Shown: piece after piece, positions 23,715 through 41,231 of the stretch
Layout of the letters: each line of letters begins with the position of its first letter
Numbering within the stretch: the first letter of the stretch is position 1
Source: Bacteroidaceae bacterium
GTDB lineage: Bacteria > Bacteroidota > Bacteroidia > Bacteroidales > Bacteroidaceae
Assembly (NCBI GenBank): GCA_017541265.1
Contig: JAFXZK010000082.1
Location: forward strand, 1-49,254
Length of the DNA stretch: 49,254 nt
Direction: 5' to 3'
Made by a program: the position numbers and the translations under genes
Notes under the pieces: model-generated
Database searches by the model: none
Told to the model about the DNA's origin: nothing
What the model saw: only the letters and a program-made list of their open reading frames with translations

Positions 23715-23735
23715 AACTCAATCTTTTTAGCAAAA

Positions 23736-24097: not shown

Positions 24098-24103
24098 CAA
24101 CGC

Positions 24104-24221
24104 ATTTGGGGTCTTGTGTCACTCATAAAGTACACACCTCCTTTCAAAAGAACAGCCACACGCCCTGCCCTCTTCAAGGAACAGAGCAAAGTCCTGGAAG
24201 CCTGTCCTCTGGGGCTTTTTC
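24104..24221 (+). ncRNA. small RNA candidate (about 118 nt)
   Basis: The transcript expected from the 24066-24097 promoter contains no ATG frame and ends at a terminator-like stem GAAGCC/GGCTTT (24197-24218) followed by more T. It carries CACCTCCTTTC (24135-24145), identical to the anti-Shine-Dalgarno end of 16S rRNA as I recall it. It converges on the 24252-25187 gene. Promoter and terminator are seen; the RNA itself is inferred. Confidence 0.5.
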
Positions 24222-24251
24222 ATCCCCGCTTAACACGAGTGTTAATTGTTG

Positions 24252-25187: not shown

Positions 25188-25228
25188 ATTATGTTAAAAG
25201 TTGTAAATCGTGGTTAGTTTTTCTTGCT

Positions 25229-25531: not shown

Positions 25532-25544
25532 AGCTTTGCAAGTG

Positions 25545-26092: not shown

Positions 26093-26127
26093 CAATATAG
26101 ATGCTATTTGGCGTAAAGTCAAGGGCG
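26093..26127 (-). promoter_or_regulatory. phage late promoter, copy 1
   Basis: Minus strand: CGCCCTTGAC (26118-26127), 20 nt after the TTG, then TATATTG (26093-26099). It matches six other copies in this window. It would serve the spanin, 25229-25531 and epimerase genes. Confidence 0.75.
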
Positions 26128-26240
26128 AAACCACTACAAAAGAAAAACCGCCAGCCCCAAAAAGCTACAACATGGAGCCAGCGGAAAAATTATAAACTTT
26201 CTTTTTGCTATGAAAAAGCCAATACGCCTCGCGGCGATTG

Positions 26241-26313
26241 TGGCGGAAGAAGGATTCGAACCTCCGACTTTCAGGTTATGAGCCTGACGAGCTGGCCTCT
26301 GCTCTATTCCGCT
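26241..26313 (-). tRNA. tRNA with CAU anticodon (Met, or Ile if lysidine-modified)
   Basis: 73 nt fold as a full cloverleaf: acceptor AGCGGAA/TTCCGCC (first pair A-C), D arm GAGC/GCTC, anticodon stem TCAGG/CCTGA with loop CTCATAA (anticodon at 26278-26280), T arm GGAGG/CCTTC with loop TTCGAAT. Discriminator A; CCA is not encoded, as usual in Bacteroidetes. The CAU anticodon cannot by sequence alone be assigned between elongator Met, initiator and Ile2. Confidence 0.9.
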
Positions 26314-26334
26314 ACATGAAGAACTTTACAGCTG

Positions 26335-26364
26335 CAAAGGTACGACAAAATATCAATACTGCAA
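26335..26364 (-). promoter_or_regulatory. promoter of the tRNA gene
   Basis: Minus strand: TTG (26362-26364), 19 nt, TACCTTTG (26335-26342). Predicted start near 26328, about 15 nt before the tRNA. Confidence 0.6.
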
Positions 26365-26378
26365 TACTGCGCGGCTTT

Positions 26379-26479
26379 CAGTTGACACCTATATTTTTTC
26401 AATTGACACTGAATGCTTGTAATAGATTGACACCCATCACGTTGCAGGCGAAAAAAATTTTTGCGTTTAAGTTGGCACT
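26379..26479. repeat. short direct repeats (CAGTTGACACC type) in AT-rich gap
   Basis: Four related 11-mers: CAGTTGACACC (26379), CAATTGACACT (26400), AGATTGACACC (26424) and AAGTTGGCACT (26469). Starts are 21, 24 and 45 nt apart, about two or four helical turns. The gap 26317-26960 holds no gene and is very AT-rich. Operator or iteron array is the likely reading. Confidence 0.55.
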
Positions 26480-26929
26480 CAACGAAAACACATATATAAC
26501 ATATTGAGGTACAATAATTTACGAAGTAATTGCGGCGCAAATTAGAACTTTCTTTTATTTTTGAGGTAAATTTGTATTGTAAATTTTTATATAGATTTTT
26601 CTATATATAATATAACTATCTATAAATCAACTTCTTTTCTTCTTTTTATTTACTATTTATATTTTAATTGGGGTACGGGGAATTGTCTCGTATGATGCGA
26701 TTAAATACGTATATAAAATAAGACGAAGAAAGTTGGGTGTTTTTGACCTATTTTACTGAATATGTGCGCAAATGGCTTATAACTTATTGAAAATAAACTT
26801 TTTATTTTTTGAATGACTTTCTAACTGAGAATGCGCAAAATATGTCTATTTTACATTGTAACACATTATAATGCTGCACTTTAAGTAAAATTCAGTTGTC
26901 AATTCAAAAAATATGTGCCAACTTAAACG
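26464..26929. repeat. 15-bp inverted repeat flanking 436 nt
   Basis: CGTTTAAGTTGGCAC at 26464-26478 and its exact reverse complement at 26915-26929. The left copy includes the last of the direct repeats above; the right copy lies 32 nt before the -7 box of the 27009-27644 gene. The enclosed sequence is AT-rich, with no gene seen. Confidence 0.65.
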
Positions 26930-26960
26930 AGGAGTATTTTTTAATCATTGTAGAAAACGC

Positions 26961-26968
26961 TACCTTTG
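26961..26968 (+). promoter_or_regulatory. host-type -7 box TACCTTTG for 27009-27644
   Basis: TACCTTTG preceded at 20 nt by TTTT. Predicted start near 26975, about 34 nt before the ATG at 27009. Confidence 0.55.
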
Positions 26969-27008
26969 TGGCGCAAATACCAATTATCATATATCAATCT
27001 TGACCATT

Positions 27009-27644
27009 ATGCCCAATAACCCCATCATACCTGACAGTTTGCAACGCGCTCAAAAATACATTATTCCTGTCGCATGGCTGCACATAACCGGCTACATGCA
27101 CGATTGGCTGTTCAATGAGTTCGGCGGTTCTGTGAGACTGCACGGAAAGCCGGTTGTTTCCATCTCACACCTGCCAGGCGCACGAGATGTTCTTCGAATG
27201 GAGACACATGATGATATGACGGAACCTGCCACAAACAGGCTGTCACTGTCCTCGATGCGCATGGACTGCATCATGGCAGGTTCCGTCATCAGCAAGGCAA
27301 CCGTCGAGCAAATGTATGGTGTCACCAGTGAGCAAGTGAAGATGTTCATCCCAGTCGAGTGTCCTAAGATGGCTTTAACGAAGTACGGCGTACTACGCCC
27401 GTGGAGCAGGACCATAGCGTTTGGAAAGAGACAGGCTACGGCTCTGTATCGGCTGTTGTTCAACGCTTTTTGGAAACGGGTAGAAGACTACGATGAAATG
27501 CTGCGTGAATCAGGCATAGTGCCAGAAACAGCCATCAGCATGATAGAGGGGTTCTGCGAGGCAACAGGAACAAGCGAAGTATGGGCAGAGGACCTAAGAA
27601 GGGAGTGGCAACGTAGGGTGGCAAGAAAGAAAGCGAAAAGTTAA
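27009..27644 (+). CDS. hypothetical protein beside the replication module (211 aa)
   Basis: Start MPNNPIIPDSLQRAQKYII at 27009 is preferred over an upstream ATG at 26913, which would lie before the predicted promoter. The chain is mostly helical with a possible helix-turn-helix (SKATVEQMYGVTSEQVKMF) around residues 100-120 and a basic C-terminus (RREWQRRVARKKAK). It is convergent with the Rep gene and faces the repeat array, so a regulator or partition role is possible, but no family is recognised. Confidence 0.6.
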   Translation: MPNNPIIPDSLQRAQKYIIPVAWLHITGYMHDWLFNEFGGSVRLHGKPVVSISHLPGARDVLRMETHDDMTEPATNRLSLSSMRMDCIMAGSVISKATVEQMYGVTSEQVKMFIPVECPKMALTKYGVLRPWSRTIAFGKRQATALYRLLFNAFWKRVEDYDEMLRESGIVPETAISMIEGFCEATGTSEVWAEDLRREWQRRVARKKAKS

Positions 27645-27669
27645 AGATTGTAATCTGGAGTTAGTTAAA

Positions 27670-29409
27670 TCACGAAACCCATCTGTAGCCCTTAAAATGT
27701 CTTGCAACAGCCTGATCGAAGTCGGCTGGGTTCCAATAGTATGGCACAGCAAATTCCCTATTGAATGAATGTTTATCATTACGAAGGCGAAGCGCACCTG
27801 CCATGTCGTTGACGCCATCGAGACGAAGCGGGTCGAGCAGCGAAGCAAAACCCTTCTCATCTTCTGTATTACGACTCCATGCTTTGCGAAGGTCAGCCTT
27901 TAGCTCCTGGAATGCTTGCCGCTCCTTTGGTGTGATGCCGCCGTTTATGCGCCATGCGCCGTCTTTCTCTGGTTCTGAACTTGAAGATGGTGACATTGTT
28001 ACTTCAACGGCTGGAGTGAAGCCTCGCTGTTTTGGAAGCTCCGTCGAGAAGAATGTATTGAGACTTTTACATGCCCAATGCTGAACATCATTACGCGGCC
28101 TTTTTGCATTCTCGGCAATAAGGAACTGGAGTTTAACAAGCAAATGGTCGTGGTCGCCTTTCTGTAAGCGACGTATAAATTCATTTATTTGCTCTGCTGT
28201 CAGCGACAGCTCTTCCTTCATAAGTTTGCGGGCTTCTATCTCCTTATTGGCCGCCTCCTTATCTTCGTACAGTTCACGCCCCAAGTCGAGGATGTAAAGT
28301 GTAAATTCCACCTGCACGGGAACCTTACCCTTCGCCCTTCCATCTGCAAATATGGCCTTGTAGTCGAAAGTGAAGTCCGCTATTCCACGCTCCGAGAGGT
28401 CATCAAGTTCTTTTTTTGCTTGGGCAAGATAACGCTTGGCGAACTCTGAATAGTAGGCATACTTCTCTTCTGCCTTAGTGCGGGCTGCTGATAAATACTT
28501 TTCCTTTTCAGACGGTTTAAGGCTGGCCCATACATGGCCGTCTTTCTCTGCGAGAGAGGATGCTGCAGGTTCAATATGCTCGCCATTGATAACCTTGCCG
28601 TCTTCCGATGTATAAAGGCCGCATACGCTGCGCACCTCTATATAGTCTGCAGCGAAGACGATTTGCCCGACCTCGCGGGTTGTCCCATTAGGAAGCTCCT
28701 GTTCCACCATTTCCATTTGTTCGCGCCTGATGCCACGCCATTTCGAGAGCCATTTATAGATACGATTAGCGGTGGCTGTCTTTGTATGCCTGGTGGCAGG
28801 GAAATAGAACTGCGTATATCCGGAGTCCGTAAGGAAGAAATTATGACGAAGGATTTCATTGCGGATACGTATCTTTATCTCGTTACGTTTTAACTTGTTT
28901 CCTTTTGTCATTTTCTTCTCGCCTGTCTTAGGGTCGGTAATCTCACGTTTCTCAAATTCCTCTACAACGTCAATAAGATTTGTTGTGAGAACCCCATCGT
29001 CGGTATGTACTTCCGCAACAGTCTTCACGAGGTCCTTGATAACCTGACGCACCTCCGCATAGTGTTTCGGCGTAATGCCTGGCAAGTCACGGAAACGTAT
29101 AGTCGCCACAAAGTCACCCTCATGCTCGATGGATGTCGCCTTATCCGGCGTGACAAGATAGGCATCTGGATTATTGAAGTCGAAGAGCAACTGTGTCGCT
29201 TCCTTCCCCCTGTTCTCACGTCGTTTTGCGGCTGTATAGAACGGCTGAAGTGTCCATACCAACTCATCCATCGCCCGCTCTGAATAGAGCGTTGGAGTCA
29301 TGCGTAAATCAGTGATTTGATTCGGTTGAGTAGAAAGACCTTTTGCATCCTTTCTTGAAGGCTTACCGATGATGACATCTGCAGTCATACGCTTCGATTT
29401 TCTTACCAT
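27670..29409 (-). CDS. Rep-type plasmid replication initiator (579 aa)
   Basis: N-terminal part (residues about 35-260) has features of Rep_3/RepB initiators: paired winged-helix-like segments, with TANRIYKWLSKWRG resembling the conserved S-x-(R)-x-Y-x-(W/L)-L segment. The C-terminal 300 residues are helical and charged. The gene begins 120 nt from an iteron array, the standard arrangement for iteron-controlled plasmids, and that is the main support. Alternative: a primase-like or unknown DNA-binding protein. It is longer than typical Rep_3 proteins (250-400 aa). Confidence 0.6.
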   Translation of the reverse strand: MVRKSKRMTADVIIGKPSRKDAKGLSTQPNQITDLRMTPTLYSERAMDELVWTLQPFYTAAKRRENRGKEATQLLFDFNNPDAYLVTPDKATSIEHEGDFVATIRFRDLPGITPKHYAEVRQVIKDLVKTVAEVHTDDGVLTTNLIDVVEEFEKREITDPKTGEKKMTKGNKLKRNEIKIRIRNEILRHNFFLTDSGYTQFYFPATRHTKTATANRIYKWLSKWRGIRREQMEMVEQELPNGTTREVGQIVFAADYIEVRSVCGLYTSEDGKVINGEHIEPAASSLAEKDGHVWASLKPSEKEKYLSAARTKAEEKYAYYSEFAKRYLAQAKKELDDLSERGIADFTFDYKAIFADGRAKGKVPVQVEFTLYILDLGRELYEDKEAANKEIEARKLMKEELSLTAEQINEFIRRLQKGDHDHLLVKLQFLIAENAKRPRNDVQHWACKSLNTFFSTELPKQRGFTPAVEVTMSPSSSSEPEKDGAWRINGGITPKERQAFQELKADLRKAWSRNTEDEKGFASLLDPLRLDGVNDMAGALRLRNDKHSFNREFAVPYYWNPADFDQAVARHFKGYRWVS

Positions 29410-29438
29410 AATTGGATTGTTTTTGTTGTAGCTGGGTG

Positions 29439-29470
29439 CAAATTACGGCATATTTTTTCATACTTGCAAA
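29439..29470 (-). promoter_or_regulatory. promoter of the Rep gene
   Basis: Minus strand: TTTG (29467-29470), about 21 nt, TAATTTG (29439-29445), a near-consensus host promoter 30 nt upstream of the Rep start. Iteron copies begin 59 nt upstream of it, so Rep could repress its own gene. Confidence 0.55.
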
Positions 29471-29528
29471 TTTTTTACCATTTATTTTTAGCTTGAATAT
29501 CATAAAATTATAAATAAGAACAAGAAGA

Positions 29529-30170
29529 TTTGTCGAAAACTCATGTACAACTAAGTGAAATGTGATAACTTGTGTCCACTTTTTCGACAAAACCTCCTGT
29601 TTGTGATAAAATTTATTTTCGACAAATTGGAGCGTTTAATATACTTTGAACACCTTTGGAAGTCGCCTTTTCGGATATTTTCGACAAATCGGGGAGTTCT
29701 TAAAGAAGAAAAACTTTATTTATACCTACATCCAATCAAATATCCCCAAAATTGTCGAAAAAACACCCGAATTTGTCGAAATGTTCCCGCATCTGTCGAA
29801 AAGATAGTTTTATCACACCCGTACTTGTCGAAAGTAACACCCCGATTTGTCGAAAACTCACCCACATCTGTCGAAGATTTACCCGTATTTGTCGAAAGCA
29901 TACAACATTATTTTCTGTTTATCAGCACATTATGTGCGTCTATATTCTTATTTTATATTCTATTTATATTATCCTTAATTATATATCCATAATGTAAGAA
30001 TCGAAAAGACTTTTTATTTTTCAATCCTCAAAAGGTTAAATCTTATTAAATATTTATAAAGTAGTTGTGAAGTAAATACGCACACGCGCGTACACGCAGC
30101 CGCGAAGATTTTCGACAAATTGGAGCGTTCTATGCCTCTTGCTATCATCGTTTCTGGTATTTTCGACAAA
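29529..30170. repeat. replication origin with about 13 iteron cores
   Basis: Core TTTGTCGAAA or close variants at 29529, 29751, 29772, 29792, 29824, 29846, 29867 and 29888 on plus, and at 29582, 29617, 29679, 30110 and 30161 on minus. The seven from 29751 to 29888 are spaced 20-22 nt (once 32), one or so per two helical turns, with consensus CACCCGnATTTGTCGAAA. AT-rich DNA flanks the block (29900-30060). No gene in 29410-30243. Confidence 0.8.
29616..29700 (+). repeat. paired-iteron module, copy A
   Basis: Begins TTTTCGACAAATTGGAGCG, then about 40 unlike nt, then TATTTTCGACAAATCGGGGA. The same pair, with different spacer, recurs at 30109-30180. Both face the gene at 30244. Confidence 0.65.
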
Positions 30171-30180
30171 TCGGGGAGTT
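30109..30180 (+). repeat. paired-iteron module, copy B
   Basis: Same boundary sequences as copy A: TTTTCGACAAATTGGAGCG and TATTTTCGACAAATCGGGGA. It ends 6 nt before the late promoter at 30186. Confidence 0.65.
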
Positions 30181-30185
30181 TTTAA

Positions 30186-30220
30186 TGCCCTTGATTATTG
30201 TGTTTTACGGACGTATATTG
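30186..30220 (+). promoter_or_regulatory. phage late promoter, copy 2
   Basis: TGCCCTTGAT (30186-30195), 20 nt after the TTG, then TATATTG (30214-30220). The ATG of 30244-30771 is 24 nt downstream. Confidence 0.75.
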
Positions 30221-30243
30221 CTCTTATAAATAAAGATTGAACA

Positions 30244-30771
30244 ATGATTAACTGCAAGGAATACTCACTTTATGACCTGCTGTCTATTACGGCAATACCG
30301 ATTGCCAAGTACACACCAGCAGGAACTACCATGCTTGCTTCTGTTATAGCAAGTGAAAACTTCAACCCTACTGTTGACAGTTCTGCCATCGTCATCGCCG
30401 GTTCTGCATCCGTAGGTTCACTCATCCCAATAAAGGCTTCGACGTGCAAGGCAAAGGATTCAGAGACTGACAATGTAGCTGGGCGGCTGCATACGGTGAA
30501 TGTGAACTGCGAGATAGATGACCGCGACGCTGATGTGTGGACGACGCTTCAACGGCTTGAACAAACGCCGTCGCATCTCATACTCACATCGAGAGACAAC
30601 ACGCGATTCTTCGTGCAGGGGGCGGAAGACACCTATCTTTGTTCCGTAGAACGTGACGGAGAGAAAACGACCGTAACCATCAAGATGCAGTGTATGATGG
30701 GACTGCAGAGGATAGAAGACGTGACCACTAATGTCATATCCAACGAAGACACGATAGTTGGCCTTGAATGA
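30244..30771 (+). CDS. hypothetical late protein (175 aa)
   Basis: Starts MINCKEYSLYDLLSITAIPI. Beta-rich pattern with TVNVNCEIDDRDADVW and TVTIKMQCMMGLQR segments; it looks like a structural or head-tail joining protein but no family is recognised. It is alone between a late promoter and a terminator, so it is expressed as one gene. Confidence 0.6.
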   Translation: MINCKEYSLYDLLSITAIPIAKYTPAGTTMLASVIASENFNPTVDSSAIVIAGSASVGSLIPIKASTCKAKDSETDNVAGRLHTVNVNCEIDDRDADVWTTLQRLEQTPSHLILTSRDNTRFFVQGAEDTYLCSVERDGEKTTVTIKMQCMMGLQRIEDVTTNVISNEDTIVGLE

Positions 30772-30804
30772 AAAAGGAGCTTGCATATTTTGCAGGCCCC
30801 TTTT
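30771..30804. terminator. bidirectional terminator
   Basis: Stem GGAGCTTGCA/TGCAGGCCCC (one mismatch, one wobble) with a 5-nt loop, flanked by AAAAA on the left and TTTT on the right, so it works for both the 30244-30771 (+) and 30818-31345 (-) genes. Confidence 0.75.
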
Positions 30805-30817
30805 GAGTTTCCGAAAA

Positions 30818-31345
30818 CTACGATTCGCTTGGTTTGATGAGAGCGTTATATGTCTCTCTCAGGTTGGCGATAAAGCGTTCGTTGCTGGATACTATTGCCG
30901 TGAAATGTCCGTTGTGGGCGAGGTTCAGCGCACCATGAACGGCGATGTCAGGAAGCAGGATTGCCGTGTCGTTCTGTTGAACGTCGTGGAGGATGAGACG
31001 TCCAGGATGGGGGTTGTTCTTAACCCATGCAGAAGCAATAGGAGATTTCTTCTTTCGCAGGTCCGTAATGACGGTAAGTCTGGAAATGATGCTGGTTCTG
31101 CCCTTTCCGTTGTCTCCTGCCCAAGCAGCTTTGAGCCATTTCAGAAGCAGCTCTGCCGTAGTATTTGGGAGCGATGGACAGACGAGTGTCATATCCGCTC
31201 CTGAATACCTTGTAAGCATCACAGGAAGCAGTTCCGCAAGCGACAAGTCGCCATAGCCATGAAACATGATTGTGCCGTCTTCTCCGATTCTGTCACGCAG
31301 TGCCGGCCAGTGTTTCTGCGTGCAGCAAGGTTCGATTAAAAACAT
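30818..31345 (-). CDS. hypothetical late protein (175 aa)
   Basis: Starts MFLIEPCCTQKHWPALRDRI. Alpha/beta pattern; the C-terminal part VHGALNLAHNGHFTAIVSSN has spaced His and Asn that recall phospholipase-D-like segments, though no full HKD motif is present. It has its own late promoter (31371-31405) and ends at the bidirectional terminator. Function unknown. Confidence 0.6.
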   Translation of the reverse strand: MFLIEPCCTQKHWPALRDRIGEDGTIMFHGYGDLSLAELLPVMLTRYSGADMTLVCPSLPNTTAELLLKWLKAAWAGDNGKGRTSIISRLTVITDLRKKKSPIASAWVKNNPHPGRLILHDVQQNDTAILLPDIAVHGALNLAHNGHFTAIVSSNERFIANLRETYNALIKPSES

Positions 31346-31370
31346 AATGTCATTTATTTTGGTTTGATGA

Positions 31371-31405
31371 CAAGATAAGAAACACCCTGCCGTGCGTCAA
31401 GGGCA
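31371..31405 (-). promoter_or_regulatory. phage late promoter, copy 3
   Basis: Minus strand: TTGCCCTTGAC (31396-31406), 20 nt after the TTG, then TATCTTG (31371-31377). The upstream element sits in the loop of a 9-bp inverted repeat ACACCCTGC/GCAGGGTGT (31382-31416), which could also terminate the transcript arriving from 31454. Confidence 0.75.
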
Positions 31406-31453
31406 AAGCAGGGTGTAGTGTGGAAAGAGTGGCAGATTGCCGTTCTTTTACGT

Positions 31454-32146: not shown

Positions 32147-32248
32147 AGTTGGTAAAAATTAAATGTTAGAAATTTGTAATCGTGATTATGTCAGAGGGCG
32201 GCGGCCATGCGGCTGGGGCTATGACCGCCGCTCACCTCGGACAAATGT

Positions 32249-33529
32249 TTAGCCTTGGCTGGAGCTTGAAGAGCTTTCCTCTTCGTCAAACTGAGCAACC
32301 AAGTTCACAACGCCACCTGGGAAGGTGTAGTTGTAGGGGTTCGCTGTTGCGCCATTGCTCCAGCCTGCGAAGACGAAGCCAGACTTCGGCGTAGCAGTAA
32401 CCTGGATGACGTCACCCTCCTGATAGAGGTCCTTCTGGCCGCTGGTGATGGCAACAGTGCCCTCGGTGTTGTCGCTGGAGACGGCAGTGAAGACGTCTGC
32501 GACATACTGGCCTGCAGGAACATCGAAGTTGGTGTTGACGGCATCGTTCGTTGCGAACACCTGTGGGTCATAGTCGCGGATACGCATGGTAGCTGCGGCG
32601 TTGACCTGATAGTCGAACAACGTGAGGTCGGTCTGCACCTGTCCGATACGGATTTTGGCAGTCTGCTCGCGGGTGTCGCAGATGAACTCGATGTTGTCCT
32701 TTACGGTAGCGATGAGCTGACCGCCCTTGCCCATAGCCGAAGAGGTCTTCAGCAGCACGTTGGGCATTTCTGCAAACTTCCAGCCAGCCTGCAGCACGGT
32801 GGGAGCAATCTGTGGATAGGTCTGCATGTAGCCCTTCACGGCGAGGCGGCAGAACTCGTCACTGGCGAGGATGTAGAGTTCCTGTTCGGGCTTCTTCATG
32901 GCAGCAGAGAGGCCACCGTAGAAGTTGGTCAGAATCTCATACACCTGCATGGCGGTCTTGCCATTGATGTCGCCAGTTGCAATCAGGTTGCCGTTTGCGG
33001 CACTGATTGTACCGTCTGTACGACGCTTTGCGATGATGGTATAGATACCATCAAAGAGGGACAGGCCGAGCTTTGCCTGATTCTCGGCGGTGTCGGGGAG
33101 CGTGCGGTTTGCCTTGTTGCCGAAGAACACGTTGGCACGTACATCCTCAGCGGCGTTTCCGCTCAGCACACCAAGGTTGAAGGTGGTGAGCTTCGCTTCG
33201 TCAGCGGCGTTGGCTGCGTTGAAGGGACCCTTCTCGCGGTAACGCTCGATGCTGTCGGCGGCGTGGAGGTAGTAAGGCTCTACCTTTGCAGGGTTGTCAA
33301 CGAGCTTCCCGAGCTGGCTGCTCTTGACGTTTCCTACAGTGTAGGGACGAGCCTGAAGACCCTTGCGGTTGAAGATGTAGCATACGTCGATGTTCTCAAC
33401 GTCTGTCGTCACCTTCATACCAAGGTCCTCAAACATGGAATCGGTGAGCAGGTATGCCTTGGCAACCAACTCATTGTGGATCTGTTCCTTTACGGTCTGG
33501 ATCTCAGCAATACTTAATGCGTAAGCCAT
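32249..33529 (-). CDS. major capsid protein with C-terminal surface domain (426 aa)
   Basis: Placed directly downstream of the protease/scaffold gene and of the right size for an HK97-fold capsid protein; the body (residues 1-330) has long helices and the mixed pattern expected. Residues about 375-418 (VIQVTATPKSGFVFAGWSNG to NLVAQF) match a small bacterial beta-repeat (InlB/Flg_new type), a known display-type domain, and are followed by an acidic poly-Ser end. Capsid role is inferred from order, size and late promoter; the repeat domain is seen. Confidence 0.75.
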   Translation of the reverse strand: MAYALSIAEIQTVKEQIHNELVAKAYLLTDSMFEDLGMKVTTDVENIDVCYIFNRKGLQARPYTVGNVKSSQLGKLVDNPAKVEPYYLHAADSIERYREKGPFNAANAADEAKLTTFNLGVLSGNAAEDVRANVFFGNKANRTLPDTAENQAKLGLSLFDGIYTIIAKRRTDGTISAANGNLIATGDINGKTAMQVYEILTNFYGGLSAAMKKPEQELYILASDEFCRLAVKGYMQTYPQIAPTVLQAGWKFAEMPNVLLKTSSAMGKGGQLIATVKDNIEFICDTREQTAKIRIGQVQTDLTLFDYQVNAAATMRIRDYDPQVFATNDAVNTNFDVPAGQYVADVFTAVSSDNTEGTVAITSGQKDLYQEGDVIQVTATPKSGFVFAGWSNGATANPYNYTFPGGVVNLVAQFDEEESSSSSSQG

Positions 33530-33567
33530 TTTGTAAATTGTTTAGGGTTTGGAAATAGGGTTTGTTG

Positions 33568-33604
33568 CAATAATACTTTCTATGTGTTCTGAGGTCAAGG
33601 GCAG
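33568..33604 (-). promoter_or_regulatory. phage late promoter, copy 4
   Basis: Minus strand: CTGCCCTTGAC (33594-33604), 20 nt after the TTG, then TATTATTG (33568-33575). It lies just after the stop of the protease/scaffold gene and serves the major capsid gene. Confidence 0.75.
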
Positions 33605-33606
33605 GA

Positions 33607-34218
33607 TTATTCCTCCTTCATGGCCTGACGGATTTCTTCGTAGCTCATGCCTGGCTTAATCCTACTACACCTCTGCTTCGGAGCCTCGCCTGTGCCGTTG
33701 TTGGCTGGCACGCCTGCGGCTGCATCTGTCATGGGAGCGGGCTTCTCTGCCAGTTCCTTGATTTCTGCCTCCTTTTCGGCGAGTTGCTTCTTCTGCGTCT
33801 CGATGGTTGCTTTCAGCTCGGCAATCGTCTTGTCGCGCTCTGCAATCTCGATGTCACGGTCGCAAGCATCCTGCTTCAAAGCGTCGATATCTTCTTGCAT
33901 TTGCTTGATGGTCTTGTTGCGCTCTTCAACCAATGCCTCTGCATTGTGCAAAGTCTCGGTGATGCGGTCAATTTCGGCCTCTGCATTGGCAAGTGCCTCT
34001 TCGCTTGGAGCTTCTGCTGGAGTTTCCTCCTCGGCAGGTGCTTCCTCGGTTGCGGGAGCTTCCTCGGTTGCGGGAGCTTCCTCAGTTGCGGGTGCTTCTT
34101 CAGTTGCGGTTGCTTCCTCGGTTGCAGGTGCTTCCTCGGCTGGAGTCTCTGCGGGTTCCTGTGCGGCGGCTTGTGCTGATTCAGCTTCGGCGGCCTTCAT
34201 TTCTTCTTCTTTTGTCAT
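33607..34218 (-). CDS. possible nested scaffold protein (203 aa)
   Basis: An in-frame ATG at 34218 (MTKEEEMKAAEAES) lies exactly where the scaffold part begins, in an AT-rich start context like that of other genes here. By analogy with lambda Nu3 it may give a separate scaffold protein. No direct proof. Confidence 0.35.
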   Translation of the reverse strand: MTKEEEMKAAEAESAQAAAQEPAETPAEEAPATEEATATEEAPATEEAPATEEAPATEEAPAEEETPAEAPSEEALANAEAEIDRITETLHNAEALVEERNKTIKQMQEDIDALKQDACDRDIEIAERDKTIAELKATIETQKKQLAEKEAEIKELAEKPAPMTDAAAGVPANNGTGEAPKQRCSRIKPGMSYEEIRQAMKEE

Positions 34219-35328
34219 AGTGTTACTGTTTTGGGGGGTTGCTAATTCCTTATCTACTGGACCAAACATGGTCTCTTCTGTCGTTTTGACGTGTCCGTTG
34301 TCAACAATCACATCCTTTCCTGCGTTAGCTGCAACGGCGGCTTTCTGCTGGCCGTTGAGCTTGGCGAGGTCGGAAGGCTTTTGTGGGTCTTCCTCTGTCT
34401 CTGGGTCGATGGGGTCTGCTGACACGATGGTACGTGCGGCTGGCAGCGTTCCGTTGACAAGCTCGAATACGGCTTCTATGGCACGGTTATAGTCGCCTAT
34501 CTCATCAACAAGAGCGCCCATCACCTCATCTGCATCGAAGGTCTTGCCTGTGAGGTGTTCCTCCTTGACAAGCGGACGGTTCTTTCTGACTGTCTCGCGG
34601 AACTCCTCGCCCAACTCGTCAAGCTCCGCTTGCAGCTTCTCTGTCTTTCCGTCGCACGCCTCGCGATACTCGGCGTTCTTGTCAGGCGACGTCACGCTCA
34701 CCAATTCGATGTAACGATAGCCGTCACTGTCAACAGTACCGTTTGCGACACCCCAGAAGGCGCACATCGTTCCAATGCAGCCCATCGTGTGACGACCATT
34801 CATCACGATGGTGCGGTCACAGAGAGCGGCAACGAGCTGTCCCGCACTGCAACACAAGCCATCCACCCATGCCACGGTTGCCTTGCCCTTCTCGCGGCAG
34901 TCGGCGATAGCCTGCTCGTAGTCGATGCGGGAGCTTGCCGCACCGCCTGGTGTGTTGATAATGAAGATGTGCCCCTTCACCTGCGGAATGGTGTTGGCAT
35001 AGAGAATCTGGTCGCGATGGTCCTTGGAGCCGTAGGAACAGCCGTCCCCGTCGCGCGTCACGGGTCCGTCAATCATCACAACATTGATAATCTCGTCGTC
35101 TTCCTGAAGCTCTTCGTCTCGCCAGTAAAGACGGTTCTCGATGCGGTGGATATTCCCCACATAGAGCTTGTCTTCAAAGCCACGGGCTTTGCTGATAAAG
35201 AAACCTTGCTGTTTCTCTTCCTCGAAGGACTGTCCCATACGGATTGCCTCGCGGATTGCGTCGGCATACTTCTGAGCTATGTCCACCGGCATGTCATAGA
35301 AGGTTTCCTGAAAATAAGTTCTAAGCAT
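33607..35328 (-). CDS. capsid maturation protease (S49/ClpP type) fused to scaffold (573 aa)
   Basis: Residues about 70-300 are an SppA/S49-like serine protease: IINTPGGAAS, the catalytic Ser161 in LCCSAGQLVAA, and GCIGTMCAFWG. Residues about 370-573 are scaffold-like: Glu/Ala-rich with six or so repeats of ATEEAP, then a long coiled coil. Known: fused protease-scaffold proteins process the procapsid in many tailed phages (as lambda C/Nu3). It precedes the major capsid gene, as expected. Expressed from a late promoter 32 nt upstream. Confidence 0.85.
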   Translation of the reverse strand: MLRTYFQETFYDMPVDIAQKYADAIREAIRMGQSFEEEKQQGFFISKARGFEDKLYVGNIHRIENRLYWRDEELQEDDEIINVVMIDGPVTRDGDGCSYGSKDHRDQILYANTIPQVKGHIFIINTPGGAASSRIDYEQAIADCREKGKATVAWVDGLCCSAGQLVAALCDRTIVMNGRHTMGCIGTMCAFWGVANGTVDSDGYRYIELVSVTSPDKNAEYREACDGKTEKLQAELDELGEEFRETVRKNRPLVKEEHLTGKTFDADEVMGALVDEIGDYNRAIEAVFELVNGTLPAARTIVSADPIDPETEEDPQKPSDLAKLNGQQKAAVAANAGKDVIVDNGHVKTTEETMFGPVDKELATPQNSNTMTKEEEMKAAEAESAQAAAQEPAETPAEEAPATEEATATEEAPATEEAPATEEAPATEEAPAEEETPAEAPSEEALANAEAEIDRITETLHNAEALVEERNKTIKQMQEDIDALKQDACDRDIEIAERDKTIAELKATIETQKKQLAEKEAEIKELAEKPAPMTDAAAGVPANNGTGEAPKQRCSRIKPGMSYEEIRQAMKEE

Positions 35329-35359
35329 AATTATAAGTGTTTGAGTTTGTTACTGCCGG

Positions 35360-35395
35360 CAATATATATAGGTATAGGGAAGCGGTCAAGGGCAG
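35360..35395 (-). promoter_or_regulatory. phage late promoter, copy 5
   Basis: Minus strand: CTGCCCTTGAC (35385-35395), 20 nt after the TTG, then TATATTG (35360-35366). Serves the protease/scaffold gene. Confidence 0.8.
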
Positions 35396-35418
35396 CTTGA
35401 AATGGGGTGTTTCACAAG

Positions 35419-35455
35419 CTGCCCTTGACCAGATGCGTTTGTTATTATAAGTTTG
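35419..35455 (+). promoter_or_regulatory. phage late promoter, copy 6
   Basis: CTGCCCTTGAC (35419-35429), 20 nt after the TTG, then TAAGTTTG (35448-35455). Divergent with copy 5; the two upstream elements form the 16-bp perfect inverted repeat at 35384-35430. Serves 35497 and following genes. Confidence 0.8.
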
Positions 35456-35496
35456 TGGAAGAGATTATTAAACACAAACAGTTAAGATTTAGTATT

Positions 35497-36573
35497 ATGA
35501 TTACGAAAATTGGCACAAATGACTACCTGAAACGCTTCTCAAGCATGACTCTTACGGAGAAGCAGGAGTATCTTGAAAATGTTGTCGAATGGAACAAGAA
35601 CCAGCCCCCTACCCTCTTACGGCATACAGCTGATTCGGTAGCACAGTTCCAGAATATCATCCAGTGCGGCAGCACATGGAACGACAACGAGCAGAAGGCC
35701 GTGTCTGACGGCATAAAACTCCTTACTGCCTTTGCGGGGAGTGATGGAGGTTGGCTTCCAGATGCAGTCTATGTCAAGTCTGCTAAGCGTGCAATTCGAT
35801 GGATATGCAGCGAGCTTCACAAGGTCGCAAGCATGAAGAGCGTTGAGGGAGAACAGGCGAAGACTTCGCCATCACAGCCAACCAAAGCCGAGTCAGTCAC
35901 TCGCGATAGCGGGTTTGTGAAACACGTCGAGAAGAAAAAGGTTGGCAGGCCGAAGAAAGAGGAAATGCACAATGTTCCTACCGATGCAGGCACAACAGAG
36001 ACACCGCAGAGAGAACCAGTTCGCCCGAGGCATATCGACCAGTATGTGCATCTGTTGCCGAAGAAGACACAGGAGCGTGCAGCTATGGTAAAGGACTTGT
36101 TACAACAAGAGGAAGTGGCTCGCGAGAACGCACGCCTACTGATGAATGACCCGAAAAGCTCTGCTGACGACCGTGCTAAGTGGGCTTCACTTGCCACGAA
36201 GTGCGACAAGGCCGTGAGGGAAATCTATAAGGAGCTGGATGCCGAATGGGACAAACTCGTCAAGAGCGGCCATATTATCGTTGATGACCTCGGCAATGTC
36301 AAGGTTGTAAAACCAGAAGAGCCGAAGGATACGGAAGAGGAAGCAGAGACGCCAGCTTCTTCCAAAGGACAGGCAGCAACACGAAGGGCGTTGCGCAAGT
36401 GGCTCGGCGATACCCGTCGCGGCAACGGCAATACGCGCGAAGAACACGTAAAGAAATGGAAGGAGACCTATAAGGAATACCTGAAGATAGAAGGTTCTGC
36501 TGCCGCAAAAGACAGCAAAATTATCGCAGCTGCCAAGCATTATGGAATCAAGCTGTCCGAGTTATCGAAATAA
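35497..36573 (+). CDS. hypothetical late protein with AT-hook-like motif (358 aa)
   Basis: Start MITKIGTNDYLKRFSSM at 35497 is preferred to 35407, which would precede the late promoter. Seen: a helical N-terminal domain, a basic KKKVGRPKKEE (AT-hook core GRPKK, about residues 142-152), a coiled middle, and a C-terminal DNA-binding-like helical domain rich in Lys. Inferred: DNA-binding, perhaps in packaging or genome organisation. It is first in the rightward late operon leading to endolysin and terminase. Confidence 0.65.
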   Translation: MITKIGTNDYLKRFSSMTLTEKQEYLENVVEWNKNQPPTLLRHTADSVAQFQNIIQCGSTWNDNEQKAVSDGIKLLTAFAGSDGGWLPDAVYVKSAKRAIRWICSELHKVASMKSVEGEQAKTSPSQPTKAESVTRDSGFVKHVEKKKVGRPKKEEMHNVPTDAGTTETPQREPVRPRHIDQYVHLLPKKTQERAAMVKDLLQQEEVARENARLLMNDPKSSADDRAKWASLATKCDKAVREIYKELDAEWDKLVKSGHIIVDDLGNVKVVKPEEPKDTEEEAETPASSKGQAATRRALRKWLGDTRRGNGNTREEHVKKWKETYKEYLKIEGSAAAKDSKIIAAAKHYGIKLSELSK

Positions 36574-36601
36574 TGCAATAATGCAATAACACAATAAGAC
36601 T

Positions 36602-37102
36602 ATGACTTTTCACAGTATTGTAAGGCAGTGGTGTCGGACATATAAGCCGATGCTTGACTCTGCGAAGAACAGGCGTTTTTACCTGACAGACAGCATGGCT
36701 GGCATGGTGGAGCTTGCCAAGGGCATAGCCAACTCGTTCTCTCCGTGTGTTGTGATGGAGAGTTCAGTAGAAGGCTATGTTGACTGCGGCAAGATATACC
36801 GAAACTACCCTGTTTATTTCTTCGTCCGTGCTCGCGACATGGCAGACGGCGATGCTGCTGCGGAAGCAAAGGAGGAGGCATGGCTTCATGCCCAGAACTT
36901 CCTCTCATGGCTTCGTAAGCGACATGATAACGACCCGACGACGACAGGCGAGTTCAGCCGAATTGACATGGAGAACAATATTGACGTGCAGACAGTCGGG
37001 CCGATAGAGAACGGCTGGTTTGCCGTGCTCATCCAATTCGAGCGACTGGAACTGCTTGACTTATGCGGGAATCCTGACCTCTATACAGATGTTCAAAACT
37101 GA
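36602..37102 (+). CDS. hypothetical late protein (166 aa)
   Basis: Starts MTFHSIVRQWCRTYKPMLDS. Compact alpha/beta protein with a beta-rich C-terminus (DVQTVGPIENGWFAVLIQFE); size and position suit a head-tail completion or tail-terminator protein. No family is recognised. Its stop is in frame with the downstream 37110-37257 frame (see findings). Confidence 0.6.
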   Translation: MTFHSIVRQWCRTYKPMLDSAKNRRFYLTDSMAGMVELAKGIANSFSPCVVMESSVEGYVDCGKIYRNYPVYFFVRARDMADGDAAAEAKEEAWLHAQNFLSWLRKRHDNDPTTTGEFSRIDMENNIDVQTVGPIENGWFAVLIQFERLELLDLCGNPDLYTDVQN

Positions 37103-37107
37103 CAGCG

Positions 37108-37257
37108 ATGTATTACATTTTCAAATCTGACCCGTGGGGGAAACAAAATCCCCTGCTTTGCATCCCAAGGATGCGATGCTGCAACGCGATTCATCAGAAA
37201 CTCAAAAGACGCCCTTTACGGCTTCTACGTCAAAGGCAACGCAAAAACAATCCTTAA
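37108..37257 (+). CDS. small late protein with apparent -1 frame change
   Basis: The ATG frame begins MYYIFKSDPWGKQ, then becomes Arg-rich and unlikely. The -1 frame is protein-like from about 37140 (KIPCFASQGCDAATRFIRN) to a stop at 37257. The switch lies near TGGGGGAAAC, followed by GGGG/CCCC that can pair. Either a programmed frameshift, a mutation or an assembly error. Confidence 0.35.
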   Translation: MYYIFKSDPWGKQNPLLCIPRMRCCNAIHQKLKRRPLRLLRQRQRKNNP

Positions 37258-37269
37258 TCTTTAATCATT

Positions 37270-37401
37270 ATGGTACACAATCCGACAAGAGCGCAAGATG
37301 CTCAAAAGCCGAAAGGCATCCTCGGTCGTTTGGCCGAGTGGCTTACGAGCCGCAAGAACGTAGAGATTACCAACCATCTTTACCCACCCATGTACGATTG
37401 A
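37270..37401 (+). CDS. hypothetical small protein (43 aa)
   Basis: Frame MVHNPTRAQDAQKPKGILGR to TGA at 37401, ending 1 nt before the endolysin ATG. Helical and basic with an amphipathic stretch (GRLAEWLTSRKNVEITNHL). Its tight spacing supports expression. No family recognised. Confidence 0.5.
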   Translation: MVHNPTRAQDAQKPKGILGRLAEWLTSRKNVEITNHLYPPMYD

Positions 37402-37402
37402 T

Positions 37403-38101
37403 ATGGCAACGGTTTACAAAATAGGGTCGCCGAAGTCAGATGAAGTGGCCCAGATACAGCGTGCTTTACATCTCATTCCGGATGGGATTTTCGGTAAAAT
37501 CACAAGAGAGGCAGTCATCGCCTTCCAGAAGGAGAATGGACTTAACCCTGTAGATGGCATCGTTGGCCCTGCCACACTCGCAAAACTTTTTCCAAAGGAT
37601 GAAACTTCATCTTTTAGTATCAAGAAGAGTAAGCGCAGGATAACAGACATCATCATTCACTGCACCGCCACGCCGGAAGGACAGGCGAAGAGCATAGCGA
37701 AGATTACTCAGGAGCACAAGAACCGAGGGTTTAACACCATCGGCTATCACTATGTCATCATGCTGGACGGCACAATCGCTCTCGGCAGGGACGTTGATAT
37801 TATCGGTGCTCATTGCAGCGGCTACAATGCCCACAGCATCGGTGTGTCATACGTCGGTGGCTTGGAGAACAAACCAGGCGTTCCATACAAGAAGCTCAAG
37901 GCGAAGGACACACGCACCGAAGCTCAGAAAAGCGCACTACGCAACCTACTGATGTTGCTAAAGACAGCCTTTCCAAATGCTGTCATAAAGGGACATCGCG
38001 ACTACAGCCCCGACAAGAATGGTGACGGGCTTATCGAACCAAGCGAGTGGATAAAGAGCTGTCCGTCGTTTTCTGCAATCACTGAATACAAAGATTTATA
38101 A
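37403..38101 (+). CDS. endolysin: N-acetylmuramoyl-L-alanine amidase (232 aa)
   Basis: Cleaves the bond between muramic acid and the stem peptide of the cell wall at lysis. Seen: an N-terminal peptidoglycan-binding domain (residues 10-64, with DGIFGKITREAVIAFQ and DGIVGPATLAKL) and an amidase_2 domain with zinc ligands His86 (IIIHCTAT), His198 (KGHRDYSPD) and Cys220 (KSCP), plus GYHYVI. No signal peptide, so a holin is needed. A terminator follows at 38165. Confidence 0.92.
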   Translation: MATVYKIGSPKSDEVAQIQRALHLIPDGIFGKITREAVIAFQKENGLNPVDGIVGPATLAKLFPKDETSSFSIKKSKRRITDIIIHCTATPEGQAKSIAKITQEHKNRGFNTIGYHYVIMLDGTIALGRDVDIIGAHCSGYNAHSIGVSYVGGLENKPGVPYKKLKAKDTRTEAQKSALRNLLMLLKTAFPNAVIKGHRDYSPDKNGDGLIEPSEWIKSCPSFSAITEYKDL

Positions 38102-38164
38102 CCAGTCGCGTTGGACTGTAATGTTTCAAGAACCCGTCAAGTCGAATCGGGTTAAGCCAATGGC

Positions 38165-38188
38165 ACCGTATGATACTGACGGTTTTTT
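38165..38188 (+). terminator. intrinsic terminator after the endolysin
   Basis: ACCGT/ACGGT stem with a 9-nt loop and six T. An AACCCG/CGGGTT hairpin precedes it at 38131-38153. Confidence 0.65.
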
Positions 38189-38200
38189 AGATGTTCTGAT

Positions 38201-38593
38201 ATGGCAAAAGATAAGGAAGGTGAAGTAAAAACGCCCTCTAAGGTGACGGACATAACGTCAGCAGAAGAGAACATAGAACTGGCCGTGGAAGCCTTCTGCG
38301 AGAAGTGGATTTCACTGCCAAATATGATTATGCCATGCGAAGTCATGGACCAAGGCCAACTTCGCGATGCGATGGGGTTGTACGCCACCATCGACCTTGG
38401 CGACCCGTGGCCGCAGGCAGAAAGAGCATTGCTTCAAGAGGGTTTCAGATGGCATAACCTTGGAGGCTGCCGTGTGATGTTCCTACGAGAGAGGGATGAC
38501 TGCATAGGCGGCGATGGCTGGGAATCAGCAGAAGAACTTGAAAACGAAGAACAAGAATGGACACCGAAACTACTACCTACGAACGTAACCTGA
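38201..38593 (+). CDS. hypothetical late protein (130 aa)
   Basis: Starts MAKDKEGEVKTPSKVTDITS. Acidic, with Trp-containing segments near the middle and an acidic C-terminus (EELENEEQEW). It lies 13 nt after the endolysin terminator and overlaps the next gene by 37 nt. No clear promoter is visible. No family recognised. Confidence 0.6.
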   Translation: MAKDKEGEVKTPSKVTDITSAEENIELAVEAFCEKWISLPNMIMPCEVMDQGQLRDAMGLYATIDLGDPWPQAERALLQEGFRWHNLGGCRVMFLRERDDCIGGDGWESAEELENEEQEWTPKLLPTNVT

Positions 38594-39231
38594 CACCGAA
38601 GCTGAAGATTGCACTCCTGGCACATTTCCAAAACGGCGTGCCTATCATGCGGCTTGGGCTTTCAGAGCAACAGAAGAACATGGTCGCCCGTGTCGAGCAT
38701 GTGTATTGGCAATACTTGAAAAACCCATTTCTCAATGTTCACGCCATGTTCTACGAGTTGGCGAAGCAGCATTATAAAGATGGATATGGAAAAGGCCGTG
38801 CCAATGCCTGCAACTACGCACGGTTCGACGAGAAGGTTTTCCAATTCGTCCTTGATAACAGCAAGCCACCATCGCGCAAGGACAGAGAGACAAAGGTGCG
38901 CTTTGCTGCAGACAAACTGATGCAGCGAGGACTTGCCACAGGAAATGACCGTGCATTGGCTAAGGGTGCTGAGCTAAGCATCAAAATTGACCACCTTGAC
39001 CAGCCAGAGAACGACCAGGCAGACATGAGCAGGCTGTCGTTCCTACCTCCTGTAGTGACGACAAGTGCCAAGGAGGTGGACGAGACGAAAGAGGATGTGA
39101 ATGATGCAGAGATGAAGCGCATCATGTCCAAATATGGCGGCTTTGTGGATGAGAAAGAGGGCGACATTGAAAAGATGGTAGAGGTCATGGCAGCGAGAGG
39201 TAAAAGCCCCCTCTCCGATGGAGAGAATTAA
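38557..39231 (+). CDS. putative terminase small subunit (224 aa)
   Basis: Called by position immediately upstream of the large terminase, size, and a helical N-terminal domain with charged helices (residues about 15-120) that could bind DNA, followed by an acidic C-terminus as in small terminases. No definite motif is visible. It overlaps the preceding gene, so the two are coupled. Confidence 0.45.
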   Translation: MDTETTTYERNLTPKLKIALLAHFQNGVPIMRLGLSEQQKNMVARVEHVYWQYLKNPFLNVHAMFYELAKQHYKDGYGKGRANACNYARFDEKVFQFVLDNSKPPSRKDRETKVRFAADKLMQRGLATGNDRALAKGAELSIKIDHLDQPENDQADMSRLSFLPPVVTTSAKEVDETKEDVNDAEMKRIMSKYGGFVDEKEGDIEKMVEVMAARGKSPLSDGEN

Positions 39232-39267
39232 GAGAGAAGTGAGGGACGACCAGAAAGCATATTATAT

Positions 39268-41193
39268 ATGGGACGAATCGGTGTAAATCCAAATATCAGC
39301 AGTGATACCCTTGAAGCGCGGATGCTGCCAAATGTAGAAGACCCGAAGTTTGAGTCGGATGAGCAAGGCGGCTATGTGGACTATCAGGGTGACGGGCAGT
39401 ACAAAATGTATATGGCTCCGTGGCAGAAGAAAGTGCGCAATTTCGGGTCGCGTTCCACAAAGGTGCTGGCAGGTCGCGGCACAGGCAAGTCGGCGTTCTT
39501 GTCGTTTAACATGGCAGACGTTACCATCGGACTCCCTCGCATGATGGGCGGTTTTTGCGGAGCGAGTGCCAAACAGAACTACACCCGCACGATGCCAAAC
39601 GTGCTGAAGATTATGAACATGCTGGGCTTCGCAGAGGGTGTGTACTACTTCCTTGGCCGCCCGCCTGCCAAGCTGCGTTGGCCTACGCCGCTTGCCAAGC
39701 CGAGGGTGTGGGAAAACTGCGTGAGCTTTGCTAATGGCTTTGTCTGGCAAATGATTAGTCTCGCCGTAAAGGGTAGTGCAAATGGCCTGAACCTCGCGGC
39801 GTTGATGGGTGATGAGACGAAGTATATGCCCTGGCAGCGCGTTAAGGAAGAAGTGTTGCCTACGTTGCGTGGCGACTTCATGCCTCCAGATGCCCGAAAG
39901 GTGGAGCAGAGGCGGTGGGGCTACGGAACTGACCCGAAGGTGAACAACCACTGGCTATCGCAGCTGTGGGTGAGTGATGCCGGACTGAATGCCCGCGAAT
40001 GTCTCTGGGAAAAGGAGGCAGAGTTTGAGACGCACGAGGTGAACGATAAGATAAAGGAGAAGATGGCCGAATTGCGCTACTTGGAACGGTATCACCCGAA
40101 GCAGGCACCGCAGTTGGCTCAAAACGACAACTTCCTGCGCGAACTCTACGCCCTTCGCACACAGTCTGAGAGTTTTTGGCGATTTTCCAGTATTGAGAAT
40201 GCCGCACTTTTGGGAGGGGAAGCGTGGATACGTCAAATGAAGCGTGAACTGCCCGATTTGTTATTCAGACTGCAAATTCTCGGACAGCCTCGCGGCTCTG
40301 CCAAGGATGGGTTTTACTGCAATTATTCCGAACTAAACACCTACGTCAGCGACGAAATAGAGGACGTAGTGTTTGACAAGTACAGCACCCGCATCAAAGG
40401 CCGTGCTCTTGACGGGCAGCGGTGGCCGACGGATTATGAGAGCGAGACGCTGGATTGGGAACAGATGCTGCATGACGGCGAAGATTGTTCGCTCGACCTC
40501 GACCTCGATTATTCTGAACCCTTGCGTATAGCCCTCGATGCCAATGCCGACATCAATTGCTTCGTGGTAGGCCAGACGCGCATCCATCAAGGCCGTACAG
40601 CCGTAATGGTGATGAAGGAGTTCTTTGTGCAAGGTGAAATAAGGCTCAGGGGGCTATCGAAATTGTTTGCTCAGTATTACAAACCATTCTTGCGCCGTGG
40701 CTGCAAGGAAGTCATTTTCTATGTCGCCAGCAGTATCAAGCAGGGAGCCAGCAAAGCCTACGCCCTTGAGGAGTCTGAACAGAGCCGCTTTGACATCGTT
40801 GTAGCAGACGAATTGACCAACTACGGATTCAAGGTGACACGGGCAGAGTTCACATCGTGGCGACACGAGCGCAAATACCAGTTCATTAACGACTGCTTCT
40901 CATTTGTCGAGTCGCCTGCCGTCTATATCAACCGCGAGAGCGGACGCTGTGTTTATCTCCGTGCCGCACTGGAAAACACAGCCGTTGTTCCAGGGACGTT
41001 CCGCAAATACAAGGATACCGAAAAACTGAAATCTGAAGAGGGTATCGGCGGCGACAAGCGCCAGCGCACAACAATAACCGATGCTTTCGACGACCTCATT
41101 ATAGGGATCAAGGAATGTGCTGAATCCTACTCAAAGATAGGTGGTGCATTGAGAGGACGGTACTCCAATATAAATTTTGATGTTTTATGTTAG
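39268..41193 (+). CDS. terminase large subunit (641 aa)
   Basis: ATP-driven DNA packaging motor. Seen: Walker A GRGTGKS (69-75), Walker B LAALMGDE with Asp182-Glu183, and a C-terminal RNase H-like nuclease with acidic residues in IALDANADI (about 422) and AFDDLI (about 608). Length and order are typical. The portal gene follows. Confidence 0.93.
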   Translation: MGRIGVNPNISSDTLEARMLPNVEDPKFESDEQGGYVDYQGDGQYKMYMAPWQKKVRNFGSRSTKVLAGRGTGKSAFLSFNMADVTIGLPRMMGGFCGASAKQNYTRTMPNVLKIMNMLGFAEGVYYFLGRPPAKLRWPTPLAKPRVWENCVSFANGFVWQMISLAVKGSANGLNLAALMGDETKYMPWQRVKEEVLPTLRGDFMPPDARKVEQRRWGYGTDPKVNNHWLSQLWVSDAGLNARECLWEKEAEFETHEVNDKIKEKMAELRYLERYHPKQAPQLAQNDNFLRELYALRTQSESFWRFSSIENAALLGGEAWIRQMKRELPDLLFRLQILGQPRGSAKDGFYCNYSELNTYVSDEIEDVVFDKYSTRIKGRALDGQRWPTDYESETLDWEQMLHDGEDCSLDLDLDYSEPLRIALDANADINCFVVGQTRIHQGRTAVMVMKEFFVQGEIRLRGLSKLFAQYYKPFLRRGCKEVIFYVASSIKQGASKAYALEESEQSRFDIVVADELTNYGFKVTRAEFTSWRHERKYQFINDCFSFVESPAVYINRESGRCVYLRAALENTAVVPGTFRKYKDTEKLKSEEGIGGDKRQRTTITDAFDDLIIGIKECAESYSKIGGALRGRYSNINFDVLC

Positions 41194-41194
41194 T

Positions 41195-41231
41195 CTGCCC
41201 TTGACTAAGGCATCATAATGATGTAATATCG
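41195..41231 (+). promoter_or_regulatory. phage late promoter, copy 7
   Basis: CTGCCCTTGAC (41195-41205), 20 nt after the TTG, then TAATATCG (41224-41231), the weakest -7 match. Serves the portal gene. Confidence 0.7.

Follow-up and report, generated by a model that had tools for sequence, protein, structure and literature searches.

The window analysed here is the complete contig JAFXZK010000082.1 (C2) of 49,254 nucleotides from the assembly GCA_017541265.1 of a Bacteroidaceae bacterium, and it contains seven copies of a sequence element that very likely form a promoter class, as indicated by their placement, their geometry and the A at the predicted start site. We consider it probable that these sites are late promoters used throughout a family of phages and that they need a phage-encoded factor acting on the host RNA polymerase. 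Sequence comparison established the class, with the consensus (C/T)TGCCCTTGA(C/T)-N18-TATnTT followed by an A seven bases on. It also showed that the class has a defined geometry, is conserved, lies mostly upstream of virion and lysis genes and is nearly absent from host DNA. Together with the fixed spacing and the separation from promoters of the host type, these features strongly support the original prediction of late, phage-specific promoters; that the promoters are used late we infer from the types of genes that follow them.

All seven copies were recovered at the predicted places, and the putative promoters and the genes downstream are as follows.

26094..26127, minus strand: late promoter CGCCCTTGAC-N18-TATATT, predicted +1 at 26087, gene 25545-26069 (174 aa)
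30186..30219, plus strand: late promoter TGCCCTTGAT-N18-TATATT, predicted +1 at 30226, gene 30244-30771 (175 aa)
31372..31405, minus strand: late promoter TGCCCTTGAC-N18-TATCTT, predicted +1 at 31365, gene 30818-31345 (175 aa)
33570..33603, minus strand: late promoter TGCCCTTGAC-N18-TATTAT, predicted +1 at 33563, gene 32249-33529
35361..35394, minus strand: late promoter TGCCCTTGAC-N18-TATATT, predicted +1 at 35354, gene 33607-35328
35420..35453, plus strand: late promoter TGCCCTTGAC-N18-TAAGTT, predicted +1 at 35460, gene 35497-36573 (358 aa)
41196..41229, plus strand: late promoter TGCCCTTGAC-N18-TAATAT, predicted +1 at 41236, gene 41262-43052

The common -35 word, TGCCCTTGA, is exact in six of the seven copies, while the copy at 26127 reads CGCCCTTGA; the ortholog of this site on a second contig of the assembly, C71, lies at 23577 and also has CGCCC. 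As predicted, the TA of the -10 box begins exactly 20 nt after the TTG in every copy (TTGACn-N17-TA), and an A stands seven bases after the box in all seven. The predicted box TATnTTG is exact only in the copies at 26127, 30186, 31406 and 35395, as the other three read TATTATTG (33604), TAAGTTTG (35419) and TAATATCG (41195). An ATG follows each site, although the predicted distance of about 65 nt was slightly low, with 58-77 nt separating the first base of the box from the ATG. The boxes at 8107 and 24066 are of the plain host type, TAACTTTG with TTTG 20 nt upstream, in line with the prediction.

Among the genes downstream, 33607-35328 encodes a head maturation protease (phrog_53, E 7e-34), and 35497-36573 occurs in all genome sets. 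The product of 25545-26069 reads as lysis- or spanin-like and is without a Pfam or PHROG hit, 32249-33529 is major-capsid-like by its position behind the protease, and 41262-43052 is portal-like by its position behind the terminase, the latter two without family hits. Throughout, the labels portal, major capsid, spanin and primase stand for position or reading without family hits, and gene starts were set by a longest-open-reading-frame (ORF) rule. A tRNA-Met (CAT) at 26240-26313 on the minus strand lies directly upstream of the late promoter at 26127.

The motif was examined in an independent set of five related genomes (G001, G003, G005, G006 and G007; 622,730 bp) that had not been used for the original prediction. 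The word TGCCCTTGA occurs 46 times in these genomes, as compared to a mean of 5.4 and a maximum of 31 for 400 permuted words. The expected association with gene starts was also borne out: 32 of the 46 copies are followed on the same strand by a start at a distance of 30-130 nt, as compared to 54 of 989 copies of 200 permuted words. When the -10 box was added and spacers of 8-27 bp were allowed, 33 of 43 matches had a spacer of exactly 17 bp. In a larger sample of 12 contigs, consisting of the five large relatives, two more genomes and five contigs from the assembly of the window, 72 sites have the 17-bp spacer, as compared to 0-4 sites for any other spacer length between 9 and 26 bp. An ATG-initiated ORF of at least 45 aa follows 68 of these 72 sites, yet also 2506 of 4800 random positions; because this plain test is weak, we relied on conserved gene families and on the comparison with permuted words.

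A sequence logo was built from 59 of 94 hits, selected for a spacer of 17 bp and for a gene start at a distance of 30-180 nt downstream. It shows an 11-bp unit separated by 18 bases of weak bias from TATnTT, which is often followed by G or C, and an A-rich stretch past the A at +1; upstream of -41 the 59 sites carry no information. The A at the predicted +1 is present in 49 of the 59 logo sites and in 59 of the 72 sites taken without the gene filter. With sigma70 numbering, TGCCC occupies -40 to -36, TTGAC -35 to -31 and TATnTT -12 to -7. The sequence has a sigma70-type geometry, TTGAC and TATnTT being 17 bp apart and the predicted start about 7 nt past the -10 box. Divergent pairs of sites occur, for example at 35394/35420 in the window, and in G006 two divergent boxes lie 1 bp apart, which leaves no room for an upstream dimer at each box.

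The full motif is absent from the other contigs that were scanned in this assembly (258,845 bp). The word TGCCCTTGA is by itself not phage-specific, with 10 copies in the same host contigs, and CTGCCCTTGAC occurs 10 times across the assembly, nine times on phage contigs and once within an ORF on C114. In 186 upstream regions, TTG-N19/20-TAnnTTTG was found 14 times (twice on the wrong strand) and TTG-N20-TATnTTG not once on either strand. Of 399 related genomes from the same genus, family and order, nine contain the strict motif, with 14 matches in total, of which nine are on contigs of the phage family.

One study gives TANNTTTGY as the -7 consensus (PMC12632263). Promoters of the primary sigma factor in this phylum (-33 TTG, -7 TAnnTTTG) resemble the phage class in the position of the TA and in the distance of about 20 nt from TTG to TA, which is 20 nt in the seven window sites and in the 72 sites, and 19-20 nt in the host sample. 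The phage class differs in the added 11-bp unit with TGCCC, in the fixed spacer, and in having TATnTT, then usually G or C, in place of TTTG. Only seven of the 72 late sites match TAnnTTTG and 65 do not; the TAAGTT box of the promoter at 35420..35453, divergent from that at 35361..35394, is such a match. To judge from the sequence, the phage class resembles the canonical Escherichia coli type of sigma70 promoter (TTGACA-N17-TATAAT) more than the host type, sharing TTGAC, the 17-bp spacer, TATnTT and an A at the expected +1, and differing in the added TGCCC. Promoters of the E. coli type are described as non-functional in Bacteroides (PMC12632263).

We also tabulated which gene families are preceded by which promoter type, tolerating one mismatch in each box. 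The late motif precedes the head protease gene in 9/9 contigs, the MFITTQNE gene in 9/9, the 30244 gene in 8/9, the major-capsid-like gene in 7/9, the MEHL tail gene in 7/8 and the C100|7012 gene in 6/8, as well as the lysis-like, 375-aa and portal-like genes in 6/9 each. The portal-like genes of the window and C71 also have a late promoter, which was missed in the table because TAATAT exceeds one mismatch per box. The 30818-31345 gene has the motif in only two of nine contigs. In the same table, the late motif was found before none of the Rep3, ParA, 26913, C71|20696 helix-turn-helix (HTH), 1,150-aa primase-like and methylase genes. The host-type TAnnTTTG box lies close to where the 26913 gene starts in 9/9 contigs, the HTH gene in 7/7, Rep3 in 7/9 and ParA in 4/9, but the 375-aa gene also has it there in 4/9. 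The background in 10,500 random stretches was 89 for the late motif and 495 for TAnnTTTG. Exceptions with the late motif are MazG-type genes (G003, G007) and a small HTH gene (three genomes), and, by a laxer rule, an HU-like gene in two genomes. Several virion genes, that for the terminase included, are without either box, as would be expected of genes inside operons.

A scan of all IMG/VR contigs with the pattern TGCCCTTGAC-N18-TATnTTG identified 58 stretches with the motif, as compared to 10 with one wrong spacer, of which none contains family genes and one is followed by an ORF. Thirty-five of the 58 stretches encode the phage family (eight of these from five contigs that had already been fetched), and in 32 of the 35 an ATG-ORF starts 48-99 nt from the box. 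The remaining 23 stretches are without a convincing family gene, and 18 of them still have an ATG-ORF downstream. Seven non-family contigs, picked for their match, hold exactly one site each. In many bacteria, TTGAC-N17-TATnTT is a near-consensus promoter, and single copies outside the family may thus be ordinary promoters with TGCCC by chance. Promoter-like single exact copies of this kind were seen at L112, L130, L154, L131 and L181 (G077), and the gene after the L131 copy reads as a small terminase.

In relatives with terminases of 54-61% identity, weight-matrix matches were found before the portal-like gene, the 375-aa gene or both at three of four loci (L173, L174, L175), some of the sites being changed at the ninth base; the fourth, L172, of only 3,148 bp, has no such match before these genes. 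A search with the 26913 protein, which is blind to the motif, retrieved 20 viral contigs. Fourteen of these were new and have 1-9 exact sites each, five were large genomes already used, and the last, G004, has two sites. The reversed pattern is absent from 26 contigs of the 26913-protein search. G002 and G004 do not contain the exact TGCCCTTGAC, but the forms TGCCCTTGAT or TGCCCTTGAA occur in the loci examined from them. Since the class can be recognized by sequence alone, late operons and transcription starts can be predicted in dozens of uncultured phage contigs.

We found no paper in the open-licence literature on a late promoter class of this type in a Bacteroidota phage, which is weak evidence, as most subscription papers and all preprints were outside its scope.

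The original prediction also invoked an activator or a sigma-like factor specific to the phage. The promoter sequences make it likely that the phage encodes a specificity factor for the host RNA polymerase, since the -10 box mismatches that of the host and TGCCC is strictly kept. The first genes to be expressed would be those for replication and regulation that have host-type promoters, including the gene for the factor. The factor would bind TGCCC beside the -35 region and let the host polymerase accept a -10 box without the host TTTG, and the virion and lysis operons would be expressed afterwards from the late promoters. With a single short motif and few candidate genes, the class can be used to study the takeover by a phage of a polymerase with an unusual promoter preference. 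If silent in uninfected cells, the promoter would also be useful as an orthogonal tool in Bacteroidota.

The leading candidate for the factor is the following gene, a tentative choice with the greater part of the probability lying elsewhere.

27009..27644, plus strand: candidate late factor, 211 aa, in 8/8 genome sets, host-type TAnnTTTG near the start

The protein has a predicted helical C-terminal domain, which is DNA-binding-like by a weak match, with an invariant RREWQR helix. It is conceivable, if somewhat doubtful, that it founds a new class of late factors with no clear structural relative, in which the RREWQR helix would read TGCCC and the polymerase would accept a -10 box that the host sigma factor refuses.

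Rather than an activator, the phage might encode a sigma-like factor that reads the whole 11-bp -35 unit together with the -10 box. Consistent with this, the 11 bp make up a single asymmetric unit, the logo is uninformative upstream of -41, the two divergent boxes in G006 adjoin each other, and a 261-aa protein of G003 joins HTH_17, sigma region 4 and alpha C-terminal domains. We nevertheless regard a sigma-like factor as unlikely. Sigma70 region 2 was recovered above cut-off from none of 16 phage genomes, some of which are fragments, with one sub-threshold match in G416; region 4 exceeded the cut-off only in G003 (PF04545, one of five genomes) and G416 (PF08281, one of 16), and the proteins with alpha C-terminal domains were not found in G005 or G007. 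A recognizable complete phage sigma factor, as one form of the original proposal, is therefore not supported.

Domains of the RNA polymerase were seen in several places. The G003 protein (66600-67385, minus strand; L066) fuses an HTH_17-like domain, sigma region 4 and the RNA polymerase alpha C-terminal domain, a phage protein on C100 (33943-34464, minus strand; L013) has the latter domain (PF03118, E 4e-14), and a 118-aa protein in the window (21216-21572, minus strand) reads as similar to it, without a Pfam match. By these domain matches, the phages can carry parts of the RNA polymerase, though not universally.

Slightly less probable than a sigma-like factor is that the primary sigma factor of the host reads the promoters unaided, with TGCCC merely a strong extension of the -35 box and any late timing set by something else, such as supercoiling, replication or removal of a repressor. 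The distance from TTG to TA is the same as in the host, seven of the 72 sites match TAnnTTTG, and exact single copies outside the family often precede ORFs (18/23). However, the great majority of sites do not have the host box, the same phages use TAnnTTTG for other genes, the full motif is missing from the 259 kb of host contigs, and the strict conservation of TGCCC would be left without a reason.

As a special case of the phage-encoded activator, the factor could be a small Mor-like HTH protein (75-98 aa) from the structural region, acting as Mor or C of phage Mu, an assignment that we consider improbable. The protein is present in all seven large genomes and in 10 of 12 further phage contigs (one with an inner stop, one weak), and the late promoter is located upstream of its gene in G001, G006 and G007. 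The Mor profile PF08765 matches in nine of 16 genomes, chiefly the HTH part, with all matches below cut-off. The protein was not found, however, in the assembly of the window, in G406 or in G421, and the HTH domains of its two subfamilies are only 19-21% identical, yet both have the same promoter. Furthermore, Mor binds a 16-bp dyad (PMC4390567), and the late sites show no dyad.

The leader of the small HTH gene contains three possible stems in pseudoknot order (P1 P2 P3, then P1' P3' P2') in nine of 10 leaders read, at G001 99.46-99.6k (minus; L061), G006 122.5k (minus; L076), G007 98.9-99.06k (plus; L054), G003 99.9k (minus; L067), G005 95.3k (plus; L047), G104 58.4k (plus; L194), L222, L227 and L229. 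The stems are up to 17 bp long, and their sequences differ greatly between genomes. No Rfam match was obtained for five leader-bearing loci searched. In G001 and G006, the predicted late start is about 10 nt before stem P1.

A phage-encoded factor on the host polymerase would have counterparts in phages Mu and T4. C of Mu activates late promoters, and the Mor and C promoters resemble the class described here in having a phage-specific element beside the -35 region at several operons, with the host polymerase presumed to act at both. They differ in that the phage class has a single asymmetric box and a near-consensus -35, with no dyad near -43. In Mu Pm, a dyad centred at -43.5 takes the place of the -35 box (PMC4390567).

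In T4, likewise, a phage factor redirects the host polymerase to a class of phage promoters. The middle promoters of T4, which depend on MotA/AsiA, are without a -35 box, and the late promoters, which depend on gp55/gp33, consist of a -10 box only, whereas the phage class keeps the -35.

That the repeats are DNA elements for replication, packaging or partition is very improbable. Dispersed repeats would suit a plasmid-like phage with Rep3 and ParA genes, but the sites have a strand-specific placement before the window start codons, a -10 box at a single spacing and, mostly, an A at +1.

The window belongs to an assembly of 3.24 Mb in 143 contigs, and its right half encodes the terminase, the head protease, an amidase, a Rep3-like initiator and further genes read as virion genes by position. 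Two of these are as follows.

39268..41193, plus strand: terminase large subunit, phrog_2, E 9e-4, which served to find the phage family
27670..29409, minus strand: Rep3-like replication initiator, below the Pfam cut-off, E 5e-4, host-type box near the start and late motif absent, as tabulated above

Relatives of the terminase were found on IMG/VR contigs of up to 134 kb, and other contigs of the family reach 145 kb. Since the contigs of relatives are larger, and since C100, C41 and C75 carry homologs of other late genes of the same family, the window is part of a larger genome. A second, unrelated phage type with the same motif, represented by C41 and C100, was considered and rejected, as both hold tail-gene homologs of one family. 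Rep3-like and ParA genes are present in all eight genome sets, which suggests a phage-plasmid. From gene content and source, the family is one of uncultured, large plasmid-like phages of rumen Prevotella-type bacteria: the source assemblies of the relatives are assigned to Prevotella, Prevotellaceae, Bacteroidaceae and Bacteroidales, and four of eight are titled rumen. No named phage record is close to the window phage, the best match being 25% identical.

C71 (46,741 bp) is collinear with the window, with 73-88% identity in matching blocks, and both contigs end at the same base in a tail gene, probably an assembly break. The two differ at 20600-25536 of the window, which has an IS605 OrfB/TnpB-type gene and a sugar epimerase gene, as compared to 19837-22989 of C71, which has an HTH family 27 gene. 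The window also encodes a full NAD-dependent DNA ligase (8147-10183), MutS domain I (11620-13113), a PcfJ-like protein (14885-16297) and an ArdC-like protein (10475-11545). A diversity-generating retroelement is located at 44028-45485 and 46002-49254, with a reverse transcriptase (PF00078, E 1e-8). The start of the reverse transcriptase ORF reads as the template repeat (HWSSTEYNRNNARNVNFSNGN), and the tail gene at the end of the contig reads as the variable repeat.

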